Shown here: positions 10,509-21,112 of the stretch, piece after piece
Layout: each line of letters opens with the position of its first letter
Position numbering within the stretch: position 1 is the first letter of the stretch
Source of the DNA: a virus
IMG/VR virus record: IMGVR_UViG_3300046000_011464
Span: 1 to 56,699 of that record
Length of the DNA: 56,699 bases
Reading direction: 5' to 3' (one strand)
Position numbers and translations under genes: made by a program
Notes under the pieces: generated by a model
Told to the model about the DNA's origin: nothing
The model's database searches: none
The model's input: only the letters and a program-made list of their open reading frames with translations

Positions 10509-11456
10509 TTATTTGTATTTCCAAATAAATCCATAAGCTGTTTTTTGTAAACCTTTTAGACATTTTCTAATGGTTTCACCATTAGTTCCTTTGATTTCTA
10601 ATCCTGCTTGCATTATGCTGGTCCACTTTTTAATAAAGTTCCCATTTAAGTCTGATTGTATTATTGGGAGAGCCTTACTATGGCCTAATTTAGGTTTACC
10701 TTGGTGTTTAATTCTAATTCTATTTCTTCTTAGTAATTCAACTTCACTAGTAGATAGGTTTTCTATTTCTTTTTTTCTTAATCGTTCTTTACTATTATCC
10801 CATAAACCCTTTTTTTCTTTAGTTTGTAATGAAATTTCTTTATTGTATAAATTTGCACATTTTTGACAACAATATTTTTTATATCCTTTGGTATAATTTT
10901 GAAATCTTTTTACCCCATTATTACATAAGCAAATAATATTTTTAATATTAAGTTTATTATTATAACAATAGTTTATACAATGTTTAGAATTTTCTGTTAA
11001 ATTAATATTAGGGTATAACTCTATAAAAATATTAATATAAATCTCATTTATAATTAAACCTTGCTCCTTACGTTTATTTAACCATTGAGACTTTTGGGAT
11101 TGAATACGTTTTTGTTTTTCCTCAAGGGTTTGAATACGATTTTTATAGATTTCAGAAGCTACTATTTTAATCCTTTCATAAACTCTTGATGACACCTTAT
11201 ACCTTTTACCTTCCTTTTTATTTTTATTAGTAGACATTAACCACAAAGCTTGATATAATTTTATACTTTTAGGATAAATTTCACAAAGCAACATATGGCA
11301 TAAAAAATGTTCTCTTGCTGTTAATTCTATTAAATTTTCTTTATCATTACTCCCCCCTAAACATTTAGGGAGGATATGATGTTTTTCTTTATAACCTTCT
11401 AAGGTTCTATTTTGAGCTCTTTCTACTATTTGATTGTAAATTCTTTGATAATCCAT
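10509..11456 (-). CDS. HNH homing endonuclease with NUMOD-type C-terminus
   Basis: 315 residues. The HNH core is EKHHILPKCLGGSNDKENL with His26/His27, Asn41 and His50 (REHFLCHML). A Cys-bearing middle section (CLCNNGVKRFQNYTKGYKK ... CCQKC) may bind zinc. The C-terminus (IIQSDLNGNFIKKWTSI ... KTAYGFIWKYK) matches the NUMOD1-like DNA-recognition modules of phage homing enzymes. These free-standing enzymes cut phage DNA lacking the insertion. Its richness in AAA and AAT codons is high even for this genome. A late-type motif lies 21 nt upstream. Confidence 0.9.
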   Translation of the reverse strand: MDYQRIYNQIVERAQNRTLEGYKEKHHILPKCLGGSNDKENLIELTAREHFLCHMLLCEIYPKSIKLYQALWLMSTNKNKKEGKRYKVSSRVYERIKIVASEIYKNRIQTLEEKQKRIQSQKSQWLNKRKEQGLIINEIYINIFIELYPNINLTENSKHCINYCYNNKLNIKNIICLCNNGVKRFQNYTKGYKKYCCQKCANLYNKEISLQTKEKKGLWDNSKERLRKKEIENLSTSEVELLRRNRIRIKHQGKPKLGHSKALPIIQSDLNGNFIKKWTSIMQAGLEIKGTNGETIRKCLKGLQKTAYGFIWKYK

Positions 11457-11486: not shown

Positions 11487-12794
11487 TTAAGAATTTTGAA
11501 GGATCGAAGAAGCTATGTAAATACCTTGTGCACCACTTACGGTTATACCGCGCGCACTTAGAGCATCTCCTGCAAAATAAACATTTGGATATCCTATTAG
11601 AGATAAATCATCATAATTTACTATAACTTCATCATTTAAATACTTGACCTCCGGAATATATATCCCATAATCATCTCCTAATGTTGGAAATACTTTTTTC
11701 ATATCATCTATAAATTCATCAATATAACTGAAGTAACCTTCAAATGTTTCTCTTACTTCATCCATTCCTAATTTATCTATTTGATAAGCTTCTACAAAAT
11801 CACCTTCTGATGTTTTAGACACTGTACGAGTTGGAGAGTAATATAGACCTTGTTCACTAATTGATTGACATTGTTTTACAACATTTCTACTCCAAGTAAA
11901 TGGATCTTCAATACCATTTAATTCCATTATGATACCAAAGTTAGTCATATCGTTTCGATAACGCTCGTCTTTTTTAGCATGACCATTATAAGTATAGTTC
12001 CCGTATGTTTCTTCTACTGCAACATATGCAGCATTATTGTTGGTACAGAATGAACGTAGTGATACTCCTTTATCATCAAATTTTCTATATAACTTAAAGT
12101 CATATGATACATCAATCAATTTTTGAAAGTGATGTTGTGGTGCTTCAAAACGAACACCAATTTGTACTGATTTAGGTTCAGTTGGTAATTTGTATCTATC
12201 TGCTAATTCTTTACCAAAGTCAATACCTGATTTACCTACACCAAATATAAGTTCATCATATTCTATACTATCTCCTCCTTGTAAATGAACTGTATTAATA
12301 TTAAATAAAATGTCAGTTACTTTAGTTTCCCATTTAAATTCAACTCCATTATCAACTAAATACTTATACCAGTTTTTTCCTATTTCGTGTAGGTAGTCAG
12401 TTCCAATATGATATACCCCAAATAAACGCAGACCGAAATATGGTTTAATAAAGTCTGGTTCTTCTGTTGGGTTTGAGTACATGATAGCTTCAGGTTTTGG
12501 GTGAAAACGTTTTACCATTTCTATAACCTGGTTCATTAAATTGTATGCTTTGTCTTCTCCACAATATTTTGAAAGTTGACCTCCAATAGATGTGTGATAT
12601 GTTAATTTACCATCACTCCAAAGTCCACACCCCATGAAACCTGACATGACTTCATCAGGTTGGCGTTTGTAGGGATCTTTACCCATATCTATTATTGTGA
12701 TGAGTTCTCCAGGGTAGCCGTTATCTACAAGTTTAGTAGCAGCACATATACCAGCAACTCCTCCACCTACAAATACAATTTTCTTTTTTTCCAT
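11487..12794 (-). CDS. FAD-dependent oxidoreductase (COG2509-like)
   Basis: 435 residues, full length. A Rossmann FAD-binding motif VGGGVAGICAATKL is at about 9-22, an internal VQIGVRFEAP fits the COG2509 'uncharacterised FAD-dependent dehydrogenase' group, and the C-terminal VYFAGDALSARGITVSGA is the usual second FAD contact. The electron donor and substrate are unknown. Such enzymes are uncommon in phages. It precedes the HNH gene and follows a terminator, so it seems to be an independently acquired cargo gene; the AT-rich leader (12795-12835) holds no exact late motif. Confidence 0.82.
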   Translation of the reverse strand: MEKKKIVFVGGGVAGICAATKLVDNGYPGELITIIDMGKDPYKRQPDEVMSGFMGCGLWSDGKLTYHTSIGGQLSKYCGEDKAYNLMNQVIEMVKRFHPKPEAIMYSNPTEEPDFIKPYFGLRLFGVYHIGTDYLHEIGKNWYKYLVDNGVEFKWETKVTDILFNINTVHLQGGDSIEYDELIFGVGKSGIDFGKELADRYKLPTEPKSVQIGVRFEAPQHHFQKLIDVSYDFKLYRKFDDKGVSLRSFCTNNNAAYVAVEETYGNYTYNGHAKKDERYRNDMTNFGIIMELNGIEDPFTWSRNVVKQCQSISEQGLYYSPTRTVSKTSEGDFVEAYQIDKLGMDEVRETFEGYFSYIDEFIDDMKKVFPTLGDDYGIYIPEVKYLNDEVIVNYDDLSLIGYPNVYFAGDALSARGITVSGAQGIYIASSILQNS

Positions 12795-12891: not shown

Positions 12892-14727
12892 TTATGATAC
12901 TTTTACAAATACTGAACTTGATTTTGTTGATGAAGAAGCATAATTTAACATATCTGATATTACTTCATTCTGTCTATTAGGTTCTAATGAATTTATGATA
13001 AATGCTAGTTTTGTTGATAAGTATTTAGAAACTAACCAGTTTAAATCTTTTGATTGTACTAATGCATTAAATTCTTCAGTATTTATGTTTTCAACGATAG
13101 TAGAATATGATTGATAAAAATCATCAATTAATCTTTGATTATTAGATTTAAACCCTTCTTGTACTTCTTTAGCATTAGGTAATAATGGTAAATCATTCAA
13201 TTTTAAAACATCATTAATAGGACCTTGACCTATTTTACCACCAGCTGCTTTTTTACCTTTTATTTCACCTGCAAAATTACCTGCAAAATTAAATGTTCTA
13301 AATGTGATAGATCCATCATCGTAAAGTAAAACTGTATTGTTATTAGTAGGTCTTGAATCGTATCCTTTGTATTGATATGATTGGGTTGAGTCTTTAGCTA
13401 AATTATATATTTTTATTTCTCCACCTCCAGAAAGTTGTTTTAATGAAACACCAATTAATTTTCTATCATTATATAGTTCAACTAACATTCCGTTTAATTC
13501 TTCAAAATTAGTTGGAAATTCAATTCCCAAAATAGATTCATCTACCATCCAAATATCGGCAGGATTCCATTTATCAGAATTTAATGAACTATCTGCTTTT
13601 TTCTTAGCTGCATTAAATGCACTATAAATTGATTTTACAAATGAAGAACCTCTATGTTGTTGTAAGGATTTACTTGGAAATGTTTTTAATAATAAATTTG
13701 CAGTATTAACAAAAGTTGATGTCCATTGTTTTTTATTAGCAACATATTCTATAATAGAATCTAATCCAGCAGTAACATCACTTATAGCATAAGCTGCTGT
13801 TAAGTTTTCAGGAGTTAAATCTTCAGCACTTATAATTTTTCCTAAAATTTTATATGCAATAGAATTTACTACACTTTGAGCTGATTCTTGTATTTCAGTA
13901 TTTTCAGCTCCACCTCCTTGCCCGGCTCCGCTTCCAAATTCAGGTGTTTTTTTAAATGCAGATAATCCATAAGCATTACCTTCAGTATCAATAAATACTT
14001 TACCTTTACCTAATGTTTTATAATCTTTAGATTGTAAAACTTTAATGGCATCAGCAGTTGCTTTAGGGTCTAAAACTACTTGGGTACCATCATTTAATTC
14101 AAAAGGTTCTTGATTTTTTAGTTTATCTAAAAATCTTTCACCTCTATCATCATATTGATCTTTAAATTCAGATTTAGAAGTAAATGGTTTTTCTAATTCG
14201 GCAGGTGATAAACTTGCCTCTTTAATATAAAATTTTAATTTTTTTTTTAATCCCTCTTTTACTTCTTCAGGTGTTGTTTCTTCTGCAGGTGCTTCTTCTG
14301 TATCTTTATCTTGTAAATCAGCTTGATTTTCTTCAGGATTATTAGGACCTGAGCTACCAGGTGGTACTCCTAATTCTAACAATTGAGCAATAGAAGTAAT
14401 AGCAAATTGTTCTTCAGATAAATTTAATAAGTAATATTTTTTACCTGCTATTTTGGCAGTGTATGCTTCAGGACCATATATTAAATAAAATTCTTGCCCA
14501 TTATGAAGTATAACTCTAAATGTAGTTGGTTTTGGAGCTGTAACAAATACACCTGAAATATAATCTCTATAATGTGGTGTCATTAAATCAGACATTGTAG
14601 CATCTAATGAAGGATATTTTTGGAGAATATATTCTAAAGGATCACTTTCAAAAGTCAGAAGTTGAGAATTTTTAAAATCCTCAATTTCTTCTTTAATTAA
14701 TTGTCTTAATATTGATATTTTAGTCAT
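12892..14727 (-). CDS. Large unrecognised protein with capsid-targeting-like leader
   Basis: 611 residues. It begins MTKISILRQLIKEEIEDFKN, an amphipathic helix with LIKE|E. A second similar helix (VKEGLKKKLKFYIKEAS) occurs at about 155-170, after an acidic Glu/Thr/Pro linker. In the second half KWNPADIWMVDES is followed by LIGVSLKQLSGGG; a D...(V)SLK arrangement is compatible with a PD-(D/E)XK-type nuclease core, but this is only a motif-level suggestion. It lies in the block of leader-bearing genes and its transcript ends at the 12835 hairpin. Confidence 0.55.
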   Translation of the reverse strand: MTKISILRQLIKEEIEDFKNSQLLTFESDPLEYILQKYPSLDATMSDLMTPHYRDYISGVFVTAPKPTTFRVILHNGQEFYLIYGPEAYTAKIAGKKYYLLNLSEEQFAITSIAQLLELGVPPGSSGPNNPEENQADLQDKDTEEAPAEETTPEEVKEGLKKKLKFYIKEASLSPAELEKPFTSKSEFKDQYDDRGERFLDKLKNQEPFELNDGTQVVLDPKATADAIKVLQSKDYKTLGKGKVFIDTEGNAYGLSAFKKTPEFGSGAGQGGGAENTEIQESAQSVVNSIAYKILGKIISAEDLTPENLTAAYAISDVTAGLDSIIEYVANKKQWTSTFVNTANLLLKTFPSKSLQQHRGSSFVKSIYSAFNAAKKKADSSLNSDKWNPADIWMVDESILGIEFPTNFEELNGMLVELYNDRKLIGVSLKQLSGGGEIKIYNLAKDSTQSYQYKGYDSRPTNNNTVLLYDDGSITFRTFNFAGNFAGEIKGKKAAGGKIGQGPINDVLKLNDLPLLPNAKEVQEGFKSNNQRLIDDFYQSYSTIVENINTEEFNALVQSKDLNWLVSKYLSTKLAFIINSLEPNRQNEVISDMLNYASSSTKSSSVFVKVS

Positions 14728-14730
14728 AAT

Positions 14731-15075
14731 TTAATCTTGGGTTGAATAAGGTGTTCCTTGTTCTTTAAATCCTATTACCCCTGGAATGTTTCTAATACCA
14801 TCAGTAATGGTTTTAAGAGTAGTTTCAGAATCAAATTTATTTTGTTTAACGTATGGGTAAGGATCAACTTTAATTTCTAATTTACTTCTAAAGTATCTTG
14901 AGGTTGAATCTTGTTCCATCTCTACATTACGTACAACAGTAATAGCAGGTAAGGCTCTAACATCAGAAAGAATATCTTTTTGATTTCTTTTCTCGTCATC
15001 TACAATTAATATTCCTTCTAAGTGAAATATTTTGTCTAGATTACCTTCGTTTAATAATTTACTTATTGATATCAT
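14731..15075 (-). CDS. Small protein with 10-residue leader MISISKLLNE
   Basis: 114 residues, function unrecognised. The first ten residues (MISISKLLNE) match the length and end pattern of T4 internal-protein leaders, with a predicted LLNE|G cut. The remainder (IFHLEGILIVDDEKRNQKD ... RNIPGVIGFKEQGTPYSTQ) looks like a compact alpha/beta fold with strand-rich halves. It is tightly spaced with its neighbours (3 nt to the next gene). Confidence 0.65.
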   Translation of the reverse strand: MISISKLLNEGNLDKIFHLEGILIVDDEKRNQKDILSDVRALPAITVVRNVEMEQDSTSRYFRSKLEIKVDPYPYVKQNKFDSETTLKTITDGIRNIPGVIGFKEQGTPYSTQD

Positions 15076-15077
15076 AA

Positions 15078-15323
15078 TTATTTATTTAAGGGTTCCCACC
15101 AATTAGTACAATATTCGTCAGCAGCATATGGTATAGTATTGGTACCAGCCCAATCATAATAATAATTACTAGTACAAATTTGTTCTTCTTGATTCCACCA
15201 TTTACAATTTGCGCAACATGAACCTCCTTTAGGTACCTGTAATCCTGCTTTATGGTTAGGAGGTAAAACCATTTCACCTGGCCCTCCGTAATTTTCAGTT
15301 AGTATGTTTTGTAGCTTTATCAT
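15078..15323 (-). CDS. Cys-rich small protein, possible metal or Fe-S binder
   Basis: 81 residues from the ATG at 15323 (MIKLQNILTENYGG), which overlaps the upstream stop as ATGA. A start at 15338 is possible but spoils the leader. The core GGSCCANCKWW ... CTSN ... YCTNWWEP carries five Cys with aromatic partners, resembling small high-potential iron-sulfur-like proteins known from phages. A leader cut at ILTE|N would leave this domain intact. Confidence 0.7.
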   Translation of the reverse strand: MIKLQNILTENYGGPGEMVLPPNHKAGLQVPKGGSCCANCKWWNQEEQICTSNYYYDWAGTNTIPYAADEYCTNWWEPLNK

Positions 15324-15715
15324 TTTGTTTTTCCCCAAGTTTTACCTTTACCTTTTCTTTTACATCCAGCAGGAGTAGGTCTACAAGCAGGATATTTAGC
15401 ACGTTTTTCACCTTCTTTTCTACCACAAGCTTTATAACCTCCTTTACCATCAGGTGCATTACAATCTACCCATCCACCTTCTTTACCTTTAGGGCCTGAA
15501 CGTTTAAACCAAGTACGTAATGTTTCTTTTTGTGCTTCAGTTAATTTTTCAAATTTTTCTTTTAAATCTTTCCAAATATCACCTTGACGACATCTAACAA
15601 TTTGACCTGATCTATATGCTGATGATTTTGGGTTTTTGCGTCTTGCAATACGTAAACATCTATCTGCTTTTTTCTCAGATAATATTTGGTTTAATATTTC
15701 AGAAAGTTTTATCAC
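15320..15715 (-). CDS. DUF5872-like small basic Cys protein
   Basis: 131 residues. The leader MIKLSEILNQILSE|K precedes a basic domain: AYRSGQIVRCRQGDIWKDL, then GGWVDCNAPDGKGGYKACG and a tail YPACRPTPAGCKRKGKGK. This arrangement matches DUF5872 as I know it from large viruses and T4-like phages; four or five Cys may bind zinc. Function is unknown; the strong positive charge fits nucleic-acid binding. It overlaps the genes on both sides by 4 nt. Confidence 0.75.
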   Translation of the reverse strand: MIKLSEILNQILSEKKADRCLRIARRKNPKSSAYRSGQIVRCRQGDIWKDLKEKFEKLTEAQKETLRTWFKRSGPKGKEGGWVDCNAPDGKGGYKACGRKEGEKRAKYPACRPTPAGCKRKGKGKTWGKTK

Positions 15716-15960
15716 TTTTTACTAACTATTTTATTATAGTCAGTCATAGATAAAGTTTTTCCATTAGCACTTAAAGCAATAGCTTTTTCAGTTACATCAT
15801 GTAAATCCATATCAGTTTTAGCATCTTCCCTCGCATATTCTAACATACGAATAAATAGTGGAACGTCCAAAATTATTTTGTCTGTTGGATTAGATTGTTT
15901 TTCTAAAAAAACTTGTTCTACTGCTTCTCTAATGAGGAATCTTAAGGTTGATTTATCCAT
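15712..15960 (-). CDS. Small helical protein with leader
   Basis: 82 residues. It begins MDKSTLRFLIREAVEQVFLE|K, an amphipathic helix with two candidate (L/I)xE sites. The remainder is acidic and helical (MLEYAREDAKTDMDLHDVT). No function recognised. It is translationally coupled to the DUF5872-like gene (ATGA overlap). Confidence 0.6.
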   Translation of the reverse strand: MDKSTLRFLIREAVEQVFLEKQSNPTDKIILDVPLFIRMLEYAREDAKTDMDLHDVTEKAIALSANGKTLSMTDYNKIVSKK

Positions 15961-15961
15961 T

Positions 15962-16069
15962 TTATTTATATTTAGCTAAAATTTGTTCGTTATTTTTAAT
16001 AACGTTTTGTCTTTTAACTTGATTTCCGTGGTTAGGTTTTTGTTTGCCTGGTTTTCTTGATTTAGACAT
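15962..16069 (-). CDS. Very small basic phage protein
   Basis: 35 residues, MSKSRKPGKQKPNHGNQVKR then QNVIKNNEQILAKYK. The ATG at 16069 lies inside the end of the upstream gene (overlap 8 nt). Compact size, high Lys content and conservation of the KPGKQKPNHGNQVKR type in related phages support it being real. Function unknown. Confidence 0.65.
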   Translation of the reverse strand: MSKSRKPGKQKPNHGNQVKRQNVIKNNEQILAKYK

Positions 16070-17366
16070 TTTCTTCTAAATTATCAGCGTATTTAGTTAA
16101 TTTATCTTTAGCGTAATCAGCTGCTTGATCTAATTTTCCTTTTACTTTATCTTTTAAAGTATTGTAAACTGCTTTTAATGCTTGATCAGCTTCAGCATCA
16201 TCTTCAATATTTAAAGCAGCTTGGAATGCATTTAAAATATCATCCATTGAAGTTTCTCCTTCAGCTTCAGCTAGTTTTTTAGCTTTAGCAGTAGCAATAG
16301 CATATGTTTTAGAATCTTTTGAAGCACCTTGTTTAGCCATAGCTTTTACAATATCTTCTTTTTTATTTTTTTCAGCTTTAGATAATTTCTTCTCTTGAAG
16401 AACTTCCATTACAGCTTGTTTGATTTGGTCTTTGATTGATTCTTTCATTGGTTTTTTAGGTTGTGATGCTATAAATTGTAAAGCAGATGTTATTAAGTTT
16501 TTCTTTTGTGAATCAGTAATATCAGCTACAGTGATTTTACCTCCATCAACAGTAGTTTTTTCAGCAAAATCTTTTGGTATTAATTTTTTAAATTTAGCTG
16601 CTAATTCAGGTGTATCAAAAGTTTTAATAAAGTTGATTTTTTCTACTTTACCTTGCGTATTTGAAGTTGTTGCAGGTTGATCATCTGATTCTTGTTGAGA
16701 TATGCTATATTGTAGTTTAGCATTACCCATTATAGTTTTAAGTACTTTAGTTAAGTAATCTTTAGTTTCGAATGGATTTTTCTTTTGTGGAAAAACAATT
16801 TTATCACCATCAACTACAAAATCTTTATCTTTAGCCATTACACCACTGTACTTTTTTAAGTTATCAGGTGTTTTCATTGGGTAAAATGTAGATGCGTATT
16901 TACCAAAGAAATCCATTGGTAAATCTTTAGCTTCCAATGTAATTATAAATTCATTAAATGAATCATTATCATTTTCAACTGACCATTCATCAAATTTGCT
17001 TTGTAGTTGTTGTTCTACTTTAGCCCATTCTTGTGGTGCTCTACTTTTAATATCAATTATTTTGGAAAGTCTTTCGTTTTCGTTACTTTGATCCCAAGTT
17101 TCTTTAGCTACTCTACCTTTAGTTGCAGGTACAGATGGGCCAAATATTTTAGAAATAATTTTTGGATCTCTTAAGTTATTAGCATAAATACCGTAATTTT
17201 TAATATCGGATAATGCTGCTAAAGCAGATTCTAAATTAGCAGGTTCAAGTACTAAATCATACAGAGCTTTTTCAAGTCCTGTTTGTTTTTCCTCTTCACC
17301 ACCTTCAAGTTCCTCTTTAATTAACTTATATAGATGAGTTTTTAAAAGTTCAAAATTATTTGTCAT
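16062..17366 (-). CDS. Helical Lys/Glu-rich protein with leader, possible internal protein
   Basis: 434 residues. It starts MTNNFELLKTHLYKLIKEE, with LIKE|E. A similar helix recurs inside (MKESIKDQIKQAVMEVLQE|K, about residue 309), followed by LSKAEKNKKEDIVKAMAKQG. The C-terminus is a long helix (DEADQALKAVYNTLKDK-like). No enzyme motif. Repeated leader-like helices could mean the polypeptide is cut into pieces during head maturation. It overlaps the next gene upstream by 11 nt. Confidence 0.6.
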   Translation of the reverse strand: MTNNFELLKTHLYKLIKEELEGGEEEKQTGLEKALYDLVLEPANLESALAALSDIKNYGIYANNLRDPKIISKIFGPSVPATKGRVAKETWDQSNENERLSKIIDIKSRAPQEWAKVEQQLQSKFDEWSVENDNDSFNEFIITLEAKDLPMDFFGKYASTFYPMKTPDNLKKYSGVMAKDKDFVVDGDKIVFPQKKNPFETKDYLTKVLKTIMGNAKLQYSISQQESDDQPATTSNTQGKVEKINFIKTFDTPELAAKFKKLIPKDFAEKTTVDGGKITVADITDSQKKNLITSALQFIASQPKKPMKESIKDQIKQAVMEVLQEKKLSKAEKNKKEDIVKAMAKQGASKDSKTYAIATAKAKKLAEAEGETSMDDILNAFQAALNIEDDAEADQALKAVYNTLKDKVKGKLDQAADYAKDKLTKYADNLEENV

Positions 17367-17931
17367 CTTTAGTTTCTTTCTTTTCTTTTTTAGGAGATGA
17401 TTTTTCTAATGCTGATTTTAGTTTTTCTAGTACTTGTTCAGCTTTTTCTAATTTAGCAGTATAGTTTGATAATTCACCTCTCATTTCAGGATTATCAATT
17501 AATTTAGCCATTTCAGCTTTTAAATCAGCTACTTGTTTTTCTAAACCACCTACTTTAACTTGACCTTTTTTAACATTCTCTTTTAATTCCAAATCTCTTT
17601 GTTTAAGAGCTTTTTTACCAGCTGCTAAAGCTTGATTAGAATTTAAATAAGCACCTACATATTCATTACCACCAATAATATTGCCATCTAAAAGTTCTTC
17701 TAGAGTTACTGTTTCAATAATACCTCCTTCACTCATATCTTTAGTAGCTTTTTTAACTAAATAAATTTTACCATCTTTAGTTACTTTATCTTCAAACATT
17801 GAACCTGGGGTAGATGTTAATGATTCTTCTGTTTTTTCTTCAGTTTTTCCTTCTTCGGTAACTGAATTTAGTTCTGATAAATAATCAGTAATGCTTTCTT
17901 TAATTATGTTTTTTAATTCTAATCTTTTCAT
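17356..17931 (-). CDS. Coiled-coil protein with leader
   Basis: 191 residues. It starts MKRLELKNIIKESITDYLSE with two possible cut sites (IIKE|S and YLSE|L). The middle (KDGKIYLVKKATKDMSEGG) is strand-rich; the C-terminal 80 residues are a predicted coiled coil ending in a Lys/Glu tail. Function is unknown; it may partner the overlapping 434-residue protein. A late-type motif lies 16 nt upstream. Confidence 0.6.
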   Translation of the reverse strand: MKRLELKNIIKESITDYLSELNSVTEEGKTEEKTEESLTSTPGSMFEDKVTKDGKIYLVKKATKDMSEGGIIETVTLEELLDGNIIGGNEYVGAYLNSNQALAAGKKALKQRDLELKENVKKGQVKVGGLEKQVADLKAEMAKLIDNPEMRGELSNYTAKLEKAEQVLEKLKSALEKSSPKKEKKETKDDK

Positions 17932-17947
17932 GGGTGTTAGTTTTTGA

Positions 17948-17956
17948 TATAAATAT
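17948..17956 (-). promoter_or_regulatory. Late-type promoter motif
   Basis: ATATTTATA on the minus strand, 16 nt before the ATG at 17931, directly after the stop of the next gene upstream. Confidence 0.5.
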
Positions 17957-18526
17957 TTATATTTCTAAGTTTCTTAATCGTTTTATATTGCTTTTAATTG
18001 CTTTTATAACTTCAGGATCAATACTCCCACCATCCCATTTTTCTATATCACCTGCTTCGGTAACATACGTTGTATTTTTTGAATTAAAGTACTCATCGAA
18101 CATTTGTTCGGCATCATCTATAGTAGCATTTTTGTTAGCATTAAGCATTTCTTTTTCATAGGCTTCATACTTACCTGTTACTCTTAATTTACCTTCCATT
18201 TTAATAACACAATCAAAACAGGTGCTATGTATGTTATACATTTTTCTATTTAATGGAAAATCTTTCATGGGTTTAGAACAACATGGGCAATTAAGTGGAA
18301 ATTCTACCATTGCCTTTAGCGCATCATGCTTGGTGATGGTTTGCTTAATACCGTTGTAAATAGTCCAGGTTTTACCGTTTTCTTCCCACATATCACCCTC
18401 AATATGAGTAACTTGTTTTTTACTATAACCGGCTTGAATTCTAGTAGCATTTCCAGTATTACCTGAAATAATATTTCGCATTCTTTGAATGTCGTGTTCC
18501 GAAAATTCTTTATTTAATTGTGACAT
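17957..18526 (-). CDS. Zinc-finger-like phage protein
   Basis: 189 residues. A Cys cluster, CPCC then HSTCFDC some 25 residues later, looks like a four-Cys zinc site. The segment GDMWEENGKTWTIYNGIKQT is shared, as far as I recall, with uncharacterised proteins of marine T4-like phages. It lacks the amphipathic leader of its neighbours. It starts 3 nt after the HAD gene stop. Function unknown. Confidence 0.7.
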   Translation of the reverse strand: MSQLNKEFSEHDIQRMRNIISGNTGNATRIQAGYSKKQVTHIEGDMWEENGKTWTIYNGIKQTITKHDALKAMVEFPLNCPCCSKPMKDFPLNRKMYNIHSTCFDCVIKMEGKLRVTGKYEAYEKEMLNANKNATIDDAEQMFDEYFNSKNTTYVTEAGDIEKWDGGSIDPEVIKAIKSNIKRLRNLEI

Positions 18527-18529
18527 AAC

Positions 18530-19069
18530 TTATATTCCTAATTTTTTTAAATCGTTTATTGCTTGATCTGTGTTTTTATATAAAATTCCAATACCATTTT
18601 TAGATTTCCAATTCATAATGGTATCTTCTCTATCGTCAATTAGTATTTTGTTTGGTCCTGCTAAATCAGATTTTTGTTTAGCTTGTTTAAAAACAATTGG
18701 AGTACCTGGGATGTGATCTTGTACCCATAGTGTTTTTCCTATGCGGCTTGATTCATGGTATGAAGGAGCGGTAAGTAAAGTTGGTTTGTAAGGTTTAATG
18801 TAATCCCATAATTCTTTACCTCCAGGCATCCAAGGAATACCTCTCCAAAATCTTACTCCAATTTCATTATCAATAAGTTTCCAAAACATTTCTGTAGCTT
18901 TATTTTCACCATATTTTTGGGTCATTTCAGCTCTATATTGATCAGGAGACATTCCTGTAAAATGTTCAAAGCGACCTTCAAAATCTGCTAAAACTCCATC
19001 CTGATCGGAGAATATCTGATAGTTTATTTTTGGTTTTTCTTCTTCAAAAAGTTTATTTATTGATATCAT
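18530..19069 (-). CDS. HAD-superfamily phosphatase, 5'(3')-nucleotidase-like, with leader
   Basis: 179 residues. Leader MISINKLFEE|E precedes a HAD domain: nucleophile motif SDQDGVLADF (Asp22, Asp24), a Thr/Ser-bearing LLTAPS strand, and the acidic motif ILIDDREDTIMNWKSKNG near residue 147. The layout matches small deoxyribonucleotidases that dephosphorylate nucleotides. The leader matches T4 Alt-type leaders in length, so this enzyme may be carried in the capsid. It is 4 nt from the upstream fusion gene. Confidence 0.8.
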   Translation of the reverse strand: MISINKLFEEEKPKINYQIFSDQDGVLADFEGRFEHFTGMSPDQYRAEMTQKYGENKATEMFWKLIDNEIGVRFWRGIPWMPGGKELWDYIKPYKPTLLTAPSYHESSRIGKTLWVQDHIPGTPIVFKQAKQKSDLAGPNKILIDDREDTIMNWKSKNGIGILYKNTDQAINDLKKLGI

Positions 19070-19073
19070 TTTT

Positions 19074-20360
19074 TTACCATTTCTTGCAAGACCAATAATT
19101 AGCTTTCCAACGTGGTCCTGGGTTAGCGCAGTTATGTCTTGCTCTATAAGCTGCTCTTCTTTTAGGGTTTTTGGCTTTAATTACCATTCTTTTACCTTTA
19201 GCAGATTTACCACCAAAGCCAAAGTTAACTTTAACTACTTTACCCTTATTATTTTTAACATATACCTTAAATTTCTTAATATCACCTTGCATAATTTTAC
19301 CTAAGGTAACTTTACGACCCTGATATTCAGCTTCAGTTAAGGTTGATTCAGATAACTGTTTAGTATATTCTTTTAGAAAAGAAATAAATTCTTTTAAATC
19401 TTGTTCGTTTTCAACATCATATTCATCTATTTCTTCAGTAGTTTGACTTTCAAATATTTCAGGATTTTCACGTCCAAATTCTCTCATTATTACCCCTGCC
19501 ATTGCATTAGCTTCATTTTCAGTATCAGAACCATCTTCTCCATTTAATTCATTACCATTTAAATTTTGCATATGATGAACTAATTCATGAGCTAATGTTC
19601 TTAAAATATCAGCCATATTTCGATTATGAACTACTATTTTTATTTCTTGCTCTTGTGGGTAATATCCTCCAAAACTTTTATGTTCTTGTGAGTATGTTGG
19701 AGAATTAATAACAAAAACTTTAGGTTTATCCACATTTAATTTATCACAAGTATAATCAACAAATTTATCTATTAATGGAGCTTTTTGTGGGGTAAAGTTT
19801 TCATGTAATATAGGGCCAGGTTTAAATTCGTCTTTAGAGTAAATAGAAAATATTTGTTTAGCATCAATACCTTTAGGTAAAAATGTTTGTATATCTTCTA
19901 AATCTTTATTTCTGATAGCTGTTCTTAAATCCGTAGCATTAAAGTTTTCGGTAGTACCTGCATCAACTATTTGAACATTAGAGTATTTTTCTCTATCTTT
20001 ATCAATAGCAGCATATCTACTTCTTTCTCCTTTACCATAAAGTACAATAAAATCTCTTGATTTGTCTTTTATAATATCAAATACTTCACTTACAGGAGAT
20101 GATTTAGTTGCAACTTTTATTTCAACATTTGAAGGTAATAAATCTTTATATAAAGACCAAACTTCCATTGATTGTTCAGGTGTGAATTCATCTTTAGGCA
20201 CATTAGACATTATTACAATTACTTCATCAGCAATTTCAGAAGCTTTATTGACAACATTAAAATGTCCTTGGTGTGGTGGTTTAAATTTACCAGGATACAA
20301 AGCTACTATTGGAGTAGATTGTTCTAATAGTTCTTGTACAATTTCTTGACCTATATTCAT
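19074..20360 (-). CDS. Three-domain fusion: nucleotidyltransferase, zincin metallopeptidase, RARHNC-YWSC C-terminal domain
   Basis: 428 residues in one frame. Domain 1 (about 15-175) is a cytidylyltransferase-fold enzyme: VALYPGKFKPPHQGHF has the HxGH motif (His30, His33) and NFNATDLRTAIR is the second nucleotide-binding motif, as in NMN or pantetheine adenylyltransferases. Domain 2 (about 195-305) has HELVHH (258-263) followed by ENEANA, the zinc site of gluzincin-like peptidases. Domain 3 (about 345-428) is basic and ends YRARHNC ... YWSCKKW, a module known from T4-like phage head-region proteins. LTE|A just before domain 3 is a candidate gp21 cut site. The start overlaps the preceding kinase stop. 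Confidence 0.8.
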   Translation of the reverse strand: MNIGQEIVQELLEQSTPIVALYPGKFKPPHQGHFNVVNKASEIADEVIVIMSNVPKDEFTPEQSMEVWSLYKDLLPSNVEIKVATKSSPVSEVFDIIKDKSRDFIVLYGKGERSRYAAIDKDREKYSNVQIVDAGTTENFNATDLRTAIRNKDLEDIQTFLPKGIDAKQIFSIYSKDEFKPGPILHENFTPQKAPLIDKFVDYTCDKLNVDKPKVFVINSPTYSQEHKSFGGYYPQEQEIKIVVHNRNMADILRTLAHELVHHMQNLNGNELNGEDGSDTENEANAMAGVIMREFGRENPEIFESQTTEEIDEYDVENEQDLKEFISFLKEYTKQLSESTLTEAEYQGRKVTLGKIMQGDIKKFKVYVKNNKGKVVKVNFGFGGKSAKGKRMVIKAKNPKRRAAYRARHNCANPGPRWKANYWSCKKW

Positions 20361-21112
20361 TAAATAAAATTTTGAATTTTAGACTTTGCAGAACTTATAC
20401 CATCAAATTTAGGTAAAGTTTTTACCATTGATTCGATATCTTTATTTAATTGATCTTTTTCAGCTCTTGATTTAGCCATTTCTTCGGGTGTTTTAGGTTT
20501 TCCTATAGCAGAAGAAGCTTGTGTAAATGGTTTAACTAATTCAGGACTAAATTCTTTATTTGCATTTTCAGAATCATTATTTAATAATATAAAATTATCT
20601 CCAAATGCTTGCTCGTACACACCGATGTTTTTATTAACATCTCTCCAAGTACGTAAAACAATACCAGGCATTAAACTTCTATCACGTTCTTGATTACGTT
20701 CAAGTGAAGTTAAAGGTGAAACATAAATCATTAACATAAATGTTTCGTACCCTAAATCCTCTAATTGTTGTTTTTTCTTTAAAACCGGACCTGAAGCAGC
20801 ACCAGTTCCATCGATAATAATATTATTTTTATCTTCGATGGATTGTGCTAAGGTATCTTGTGTTGTTTTTCGAGCTTGTGCTTGTAATTTAGCTGCTTGT
20901 GATAATTGATCAGGAGTAAAATCTTTTTGTTTTAAACCTATACCACTTGCTTTTAAAAGTTCTTCATAAGTGTCATCTGAATTAATGACTTGATATGATG
21001 AAGGTAATAACTGTTTTGTTAAAGTAGATTTTCCACTACCAGCAGGTCCTGCTAAAAATATAGCTTTAGGTGTACCTTTTATTTCTTTTAATAAAGTAGC
21101 TAATTTAATCAT
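20360..21112 (-). CDS. Zeta-toxin / polynucleotide-kinase-like P-loop kinase with leader
   Basis: 250 residues. Leader MIKLATLLKE|I precedes AIFLAGPAGSGKST (P-loop 22-30) and the substrate acid pair in VINSDDTYEE (46-47). NIIIDGTG and the Arg-rich RNQERDRSLMPG lid fit the AAA_33/zeta group, which phosphorylates either nucleic-acid ends or small metabolites such as UDP-GlcNAc. Which of these applies cannot be told from sequence. With the leader, it could be injected with phage DNA. A late-type motif lies 14 nt upstream. Confidence 0.82.
   Translation of the reverse strand: MIKLATLLKEIKGTPKAIFLAGPAGSGKSTLTKQLLPSSYQVINSDDTYEELLKASGIGLKQKDFTPDQLSQAAKLQAQARKTTQDTLAQSIEDKNNIIIDGTGAASGPVLKKKQQLEDLGYETFMLMIYVSPLTSLERNQERDRSLMPGIVLRTWRDVNKNIGVYEQAFGDNFILLNNDSENANKEFSPELVKPFTQASSAIGKPKTPEEMAKSRAEKDQLNKDIESMVKTLPKFDGISSAKSKIQNFI

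Follow-up and report, generated by a model that had tools for sequence, protein, structure and literature searches.

What would a phage do with a nucleotidyltransferase, a metallopeptidase-like domain and a small basic protein joined in one chain? The question is raised by an open reading frame (ORF) at 19074-20360, on the minus strand, of IMG/VR virus record IMGVR_UViG_3300046000_011464, of which positions 1 to 56,699 are called the window here. The ORF runs from an ATG at 20360 to a stop codon at 19074-19076. Its product of 428 residues, by which all residue numbers are given, consists of an amphipathic N-terminal leader that is a candidate capsid-targeting sequence (MNIGQEIVQELLEQ, residues 1-14; 20319-20360), a nucleotidyltransferase (NT) domain (residues 19-176; 19833-20306), a zincin-like domain (residues 183-304; 19449-19814), an acidic linker with a pI of about 4 (residues 305-343; 19332-19448) and a basic C-terminal (CT) module (residues 344-428; 19077-19331), all encoded on the minus strand. 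An original prediction had described a single frame of this length combining an HxGH nucleotidyltransferase, a HELVHH zincin-like domain and a basic C-terminal module, and its position proved right, on the minus strand. We consider it likely that this fusion is a virion-internal head polyprotein of a T4-like phage, which is cut by the gp21-type prohead protease and then probably ejected.

In this proposal the N-terminal helix would carry the polyprotein into the prohead core, in the way known for the targeting sequences on IPI-IPIII and Alt of T4, and, judging from the conservation of the sites, the gp21-type protease would cut after the LxE motifs of the acidic linker during head maturation. 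The predicted products are an NT-zincin enzyme of ~35 kDa, an acidic linker that is discarded and a 9.8-kDa basic protein with a net charge of +23, which should bind DNA in the head. On the precedent of T4, the pieces would be ejected with the DNA. In the host, the NT domain would most likely adenylylate a small nucleotide-like substrate, with nicotinamide mononucleotide (NMN) as one candidate, while the zincin part would cleave a host or phage protein.

Scanning of the window protein with the motif [LIVM]xE/[AGST] gave three sites, all in the linker (IFE304/S305, LSE338/S339 and LTE343/A344) and none elsewhere. As in T4-type internal head proteins, an L/I-x-E motif lies at the product boundary. 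The site proposed originally, LTE343/A344, is present, but as one of three linker sites rather than as the only one. At the boundary of the CT module, for which the motif [LIVM]xE/[AGS] was used, 72 of the 73 T4-like homologues carry the site directly before the module even though the sequences upstream are very different. Across 54 dereplicated proteins, the linkers and extensions of the family contain the motif 155 times as against 52 expected after shuffling, a 3-fold enrichment, whereas it is depleted inside domains (8 versus 20 expected); control motifs, in which D, K or Q replaced E, the motif was reversed or its spacing was shifted, were not enriched in linkers (0.7- to 1.4-fold). Because the motif is short, a single site carries little information, and what counts is position, conservation and the controls. 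In the window itself, it occurs 14 times in the tail genes (11.9 expected) and 21 times in the head genes that neighbour gp21 (7.0 expected). Of 12 major capsid proteins of the clade, 11 have [LIVM]xE/[AGS] at residue 60-62, near the cut in T4 gp23, and these sites provide a clade-specific yardstick for a cut site.

The window also encodes a gp21-type prohead protease (Peptidase_S77) at 1107-1724 on the minus strand (PF03420, 108.9 bits, E 3e-31; phrog_207, head maturation protease, E 1e-54). Among complete named phages, this protease is found in 3/3 whose CT module bears the site and in 0/5 whose module lacks it, and among contigs in 32/57 and 0/20, respectively (Fisher p 2e-6; p 4e-4 when limited to contigs up to 60 kb). 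The suggestion that LTE/A before the last module fits gp21 cleavage is strongly supported by comparison, through the conserved site, its coincidence with the start of the module in non-T4 phages, the family-wide enrichment in linkers and the presence of the protease. Internal translation was considered as another source of the CT module and was rejected: residues 300 to 356 contain no start codon, and the module cannot be made alone by initiation at the boundary. Release of the C-terminal piece by proteolysis is what the sequence predicts.

The CT module belongs to phrog_7595 (E 3e-9), a family without an assigned function; it has a pI of 10.9 and an RxRHxC...YWSC pattern, and is known as the 'HVA1 family' of small basic phage proteins. 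No match was obtained among the sequences of solved structures. A C2H2 zinc finger was also considered but found no support, as only the two Cys are invariant and the His is not. In podo- and siphophages that lack an S77 protease the module stands alone and begins with Met-Ala (Aegir, M-AKYQG; CRP-901, M-ATYKG), and this start falls at the residue equivalent to the LxE/A boundary, as do most of the Met-Ala starts in the viral contig set L108-L187. Met is removed before Ala at the N terminus of proteins. The mature stand-alone module would hence have the same N terminus as one released by cleavage between E and A. Non-T4 phages have fusions of the module with XkdF-type prohead proteases (PF14550; L090:833-1522 and the CT ORF of L162), which we count in favor of a head polyprotein. 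The module itself has a weak resemblance to DUF5754. Modules of DUF5824 and, weakly, DUF5872 share proteins or a cassette with the NT domain and the CT module (L162, L174, L087:5079-6869 and window 15320-15715).

The capsid-targeting sequence of T4 is an N-terminal propeptide of 10-19 residues, of which ten suffice (PMC9026906). Of the window's 12 cassette genes, 3 match a strict leader pattern drawn from T4 IPIII, M..[FYILVM]..[FILVM][FILVMA].E (0.07 expected), as against none of its 55 other genes; in related loci, 91 of 593 ORFs match it (1.8 expected). Compared without their leaders, these proteins, 93 with the window included, group into 20 families. The leader consensus, about MIKLxDILxE, occurs at window 12892-21112 and in loci L003-L046 and L075, and a second class, about MKxxxLRxLIxE, was seen on further genes. 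The leader of the fusion is conserved in homologues as MN[LI]Gx..xxLLE and is missing in L016, L017 and L019, which begin MKIAIYPGAFKPP. The cyanophage protein T4-GC190 of S-SM1 (SSM1_190), which starts MKKFSAFLNE/A where T4 IPIII starts MKTYQEFIAE/A, was detected by mass spectrometry in purified virions by Sullivan et al. in 2010 (PMC3037559). All 80 T4-GC190 relatives fetched, which are close kin of one another, keep a T4-type leader, of which we found no mention in the literature searched.

The NT domain scores above the cut-offs of both PF01467 CTP_transf_like (28.2 bits versus 21) and TIGR00125 (42.6 versus 27.7) in profile searches, and it has an HxGH motif at residues 30-33 (20262-20273; PHQGH at 29-33) as well as a second motif, NATDLR. 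All substrate-specific NMN adenylyltransferase models tried fall short of their cut-offs, and the equivalogs do so by a wide margin (TIGR01526, 26.9 versus 341; TIGR01527, 22.5 versus 181). The best sequence matches among solved structures in the PDB are CoaD (PPAT) proteins, and the domain aligns with the T4-GC190 group (hhalign, 96.3%, E 2e-9). To judge from its catalytic motifs, the domain may be an adenylyl- or cytidylyltransferase. In L046 and L075 the HxGH motif is degenerate (PHKGN and PPYNN) and the zincin motif is retained in both. In the zincin-like domain, H258, E259, H262 and E283 are invariant across an alignment of 26 homologues (HELVHH, 19572-19589; Glu283, 19512-19514), giving the HExxH and downstream Glu ligand of a gluzincin-like metallopeptidase, and these catalytic motifs suggest such an enzyme. 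No curated family exceeded its cut-off on this domain in a profile search, the best being DUF3920 (E 2e-4, 21.8 versus 27.3).

When 80 viral loci with a relative were compared for architecture, all three parts were found in one ORF only in L001 (97%) and L002 (88%). In the other loci a single ORF encodes the NT and zincin-like domains, which an insert often separates, and the CT module has its own ORF nearby, one of which starts MIKLTELITEEIDEYDVENEQDLKEF. Separate CT genes of this kind have an N-terminal region that matches the fusion linker (...EIDEYDVENEQDLKEF...), and in the window the linker corresponds to this region without its start (...SQTTEEIDEYDVENEQDLKEF...). The window version arose by in-frame fusion of a leader-bearing NT-zincin gene and a leader-bearing CT gene, with the remnant pro-region and its cut site keeping both products separable. 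The dN/dS ratio of the fusion is about 0.08 versus L001 and about 0.17 versus L002, and the gene is under purifying selection. The linker of L002 has a 28-residue insertion relative to that of the window, and the two are thus distinct sequences. Low dN/dS and the shared architecture of these loci indicate that the fusion is due neither to chance nor to assembly error. The unusual order of the three parts noted originally is indeed rare, but it reflects a fusion of two genes confined to close relatives and not a fixed architecture. Other fusions have occurred: an independent one of NT...CT in L174, NT-zincin-NT5C in L010, L012 and L044, and a Pol-beta-like nucleotidyltransferase joined to NT-zincin in L028 and L030, where the old N-terminal leader is retained internally as TNLGRYLASLILE/A. 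Motif sites lie at or near the junctions of these fusions. A movable zinc ribbon (CxxCxWxW...GGxDxYxCHKCGxDN) was seen in the linker of L002, at the C termini of L004 and L008 and at the N termini of L037 and L057.

Several points weigh against a head polyprotein. Targeting to the head by the protein's own leader is the weakest link: this leader fails the strict T4-derived pattern that neighbours and relatives match, and where many homologues end the leader with LLE/A at residue 13 the window has LLE/Q, a poor cut site, so that targeting without removal of the leader is possible. The sites in the capsid proteins admit V or M at P3 and are wider than the L/I-x-E rule of T4. As the homologues are related, the counts are not independent, and many of the contigs are fragments. 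The zincin assignment depends on conservation of the motif, and degradation of the NT motif in two homologues indicates that NT catalysis is not always needed. Our searches found no experiment on this phage, neither a virion proteome nor an N-terminal sequence for it or for other fusions of these three parts, and no published virion proteome of Immutovirus or another Bacteroidetes T4-like phage.

Four other explanations were weighed against these results. The CT module may be a head-packaging tag that binds DNA or the core, carries the NT-zincin part in and is then cut off, having no function of its own; its charge, its many fusion partners and its fusion to XkdF-type prohead proteases are in keeping with such a role, but the NT-zincin proteins of most relatives lack the module and have their own leader, and in podo- and siphophages the module forms a gene by itself. 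We regard this as unlikely, although it is the alternative to which we would give most weight. It is improbable that the protein is a soluble cytoplasmic enzyme made during infection, for auxiliary metabolism or restoration of NAD+, with incidental fusion and LxE motifs. HxGH nucleotidyltransferases of phages do make NAD+ (PMC9503650) and genes for a kinase and a nucleotidase adjoin, but a cytoplasmic enzyme does not account for leaders on unrelated neighbours, for motif enrichment that is specific to linkers or for the detection of the cyanophage homologue in virions.

We would give slightly less credence still to autoprocessing, in which the zincin domain and not gp21 cuts the polyprotein, as has been proposed for P1 DdrB and for polyvalent proteins. 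The latter are thought to be packaged, injected and split into units by their own zincins, which are their commonest domain (Iyer et al. 2017, PMC5512222), and the HExxH...E residues are invariant here. However, the linker motif is that of gp21, is present in proteins that lack a zincin (the separate CT genes) and in the clade's gp23, and tracks the presence of the S77 protease. An assembly or sequencing artefact that joined two genes is hardly conceivable. A combination of separate genes in homologues and an assembly error had been named as what would refute the fusion; nearly all other homologues do encode the CT module separately, but two further contigs carry the in-frame fusion, with dN/dS well below 1 and, in L002, a different linker.

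A gp21-processed head polyprotein has partial parallels in known systems. Like T4 IPI, IPII, IPIII and Alt, the window protein combines a short N-terminal leader, LxE sites, an S77 protease in the genome and a small basic product with a T4-like head, and its cyanophage homologue has a leader almost identical to that of T4; unlike them, its leader differs in sequence and has an imperfect site, and several folded modules are predicted to be cut apart, whereas the T4 proteins are single products from which only the leader is removed. T4-GC190 (phrog_3041/395) shares a homologous NT domain, but the S-SM1 protein has neither zincin nor CT module, has TxGH for HxGH and has a large, different C-terminal region. 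With adenylyltransferases of the NadM, NadR and CoaD type the window protein shares the PF01467 fold family, HxGH and an R-containing second motif, but it scores far below the equivalog cut-offs and is not fused to a Nudix or kinase domain. Members of phrog_7595 are free-standing in podo- and siphophages, whereas T4-like phages add an N-terminal pro-region with the LxE/A site. Polyvalent proteins are likewise multidomain and effector-like, with enzymes that include zincins, and the window protein has two enzyme-type domains and the CT module in one chain that would be delivered by the virion; it is small, however, and T4 leaders and gp21 sites were found unmentioned in PMC5512222. The new element, relative to both the T4 proteins and polyvalent proteins, is the placement of gp21 sites between modules.

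More tentatively, and at just short of an even chance, we propose that this clade of T4-like phages produces polyproteins that gp21 processes, in which genes for head-packaged enzymes are fused, split and reshuffled from one close relative to another and the junctions keep LxE sites. The gene set would comprise the Pol-beta-like and HxGH nucleotidyltransferases, the zincin, the NT5C nucleotidase, zinc ribbons and the basic CT module. With sites kept at junctions, the prohead protease would convert a single targeted chain into a set of effectors that can be injected separately. If true, polyvalent proteins would have a counterpart of T4 type here, with the head protease in place of an internal zincin. 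The presence in virions of T4-GC190, the core cytidylyltransferase of cyanophages, has been known since 2010, and we found no published explanation of its packaging; a T4-type leader, cut site and modular fusions would explain it. The proposal predicts that many unannotated genes of T4-like phages encode packaged, injected effectors, and leader plus LxE/A may serve as a sequence rule by which abundant marine and freshwater phages could be searched for injected proteins.

The neighbouring genes, all on the minus strand, include a P-loop kinase at 20360-21112 (PF13671/PF06414, E 1.5e-12; leader MIKLATLLKE, a strict-pattern match), a 5'(3')-deoxyribonucleotidase (NT5C-like) at 18530-19069 (phrog_2643, E 2e-21; leader MISINKLFEE) and a small protein at 14731-15075 whose leader, MISISKLLNE/G, matches the strict pattern and has the motif at residue 10. 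The gene order in HTVC008M is kinase, NT, CT and then NT5C, and in the Flavobacterium phage immuto NT5C follows NT. Kinase and nucleotidase neighbours would be compatible with a kit for nucleotide metabolism. A PADLOC defence scan gave only weak, meaningless matches. An ORF at 10509-11456 (minus strand), between the head genes and the cassette, has a KEKHHILPKCLGGSNDKENLIELTAREHFLCH stretch like that of an HNH homing endonuclease, and a 435-residue ORF at 11487-12794 (minus strand), which adjoins the head genes and has an N-terminal GGGVAG dinucleotide-binding motif, is probably an FAD/NAD(P) oxidoreductase.
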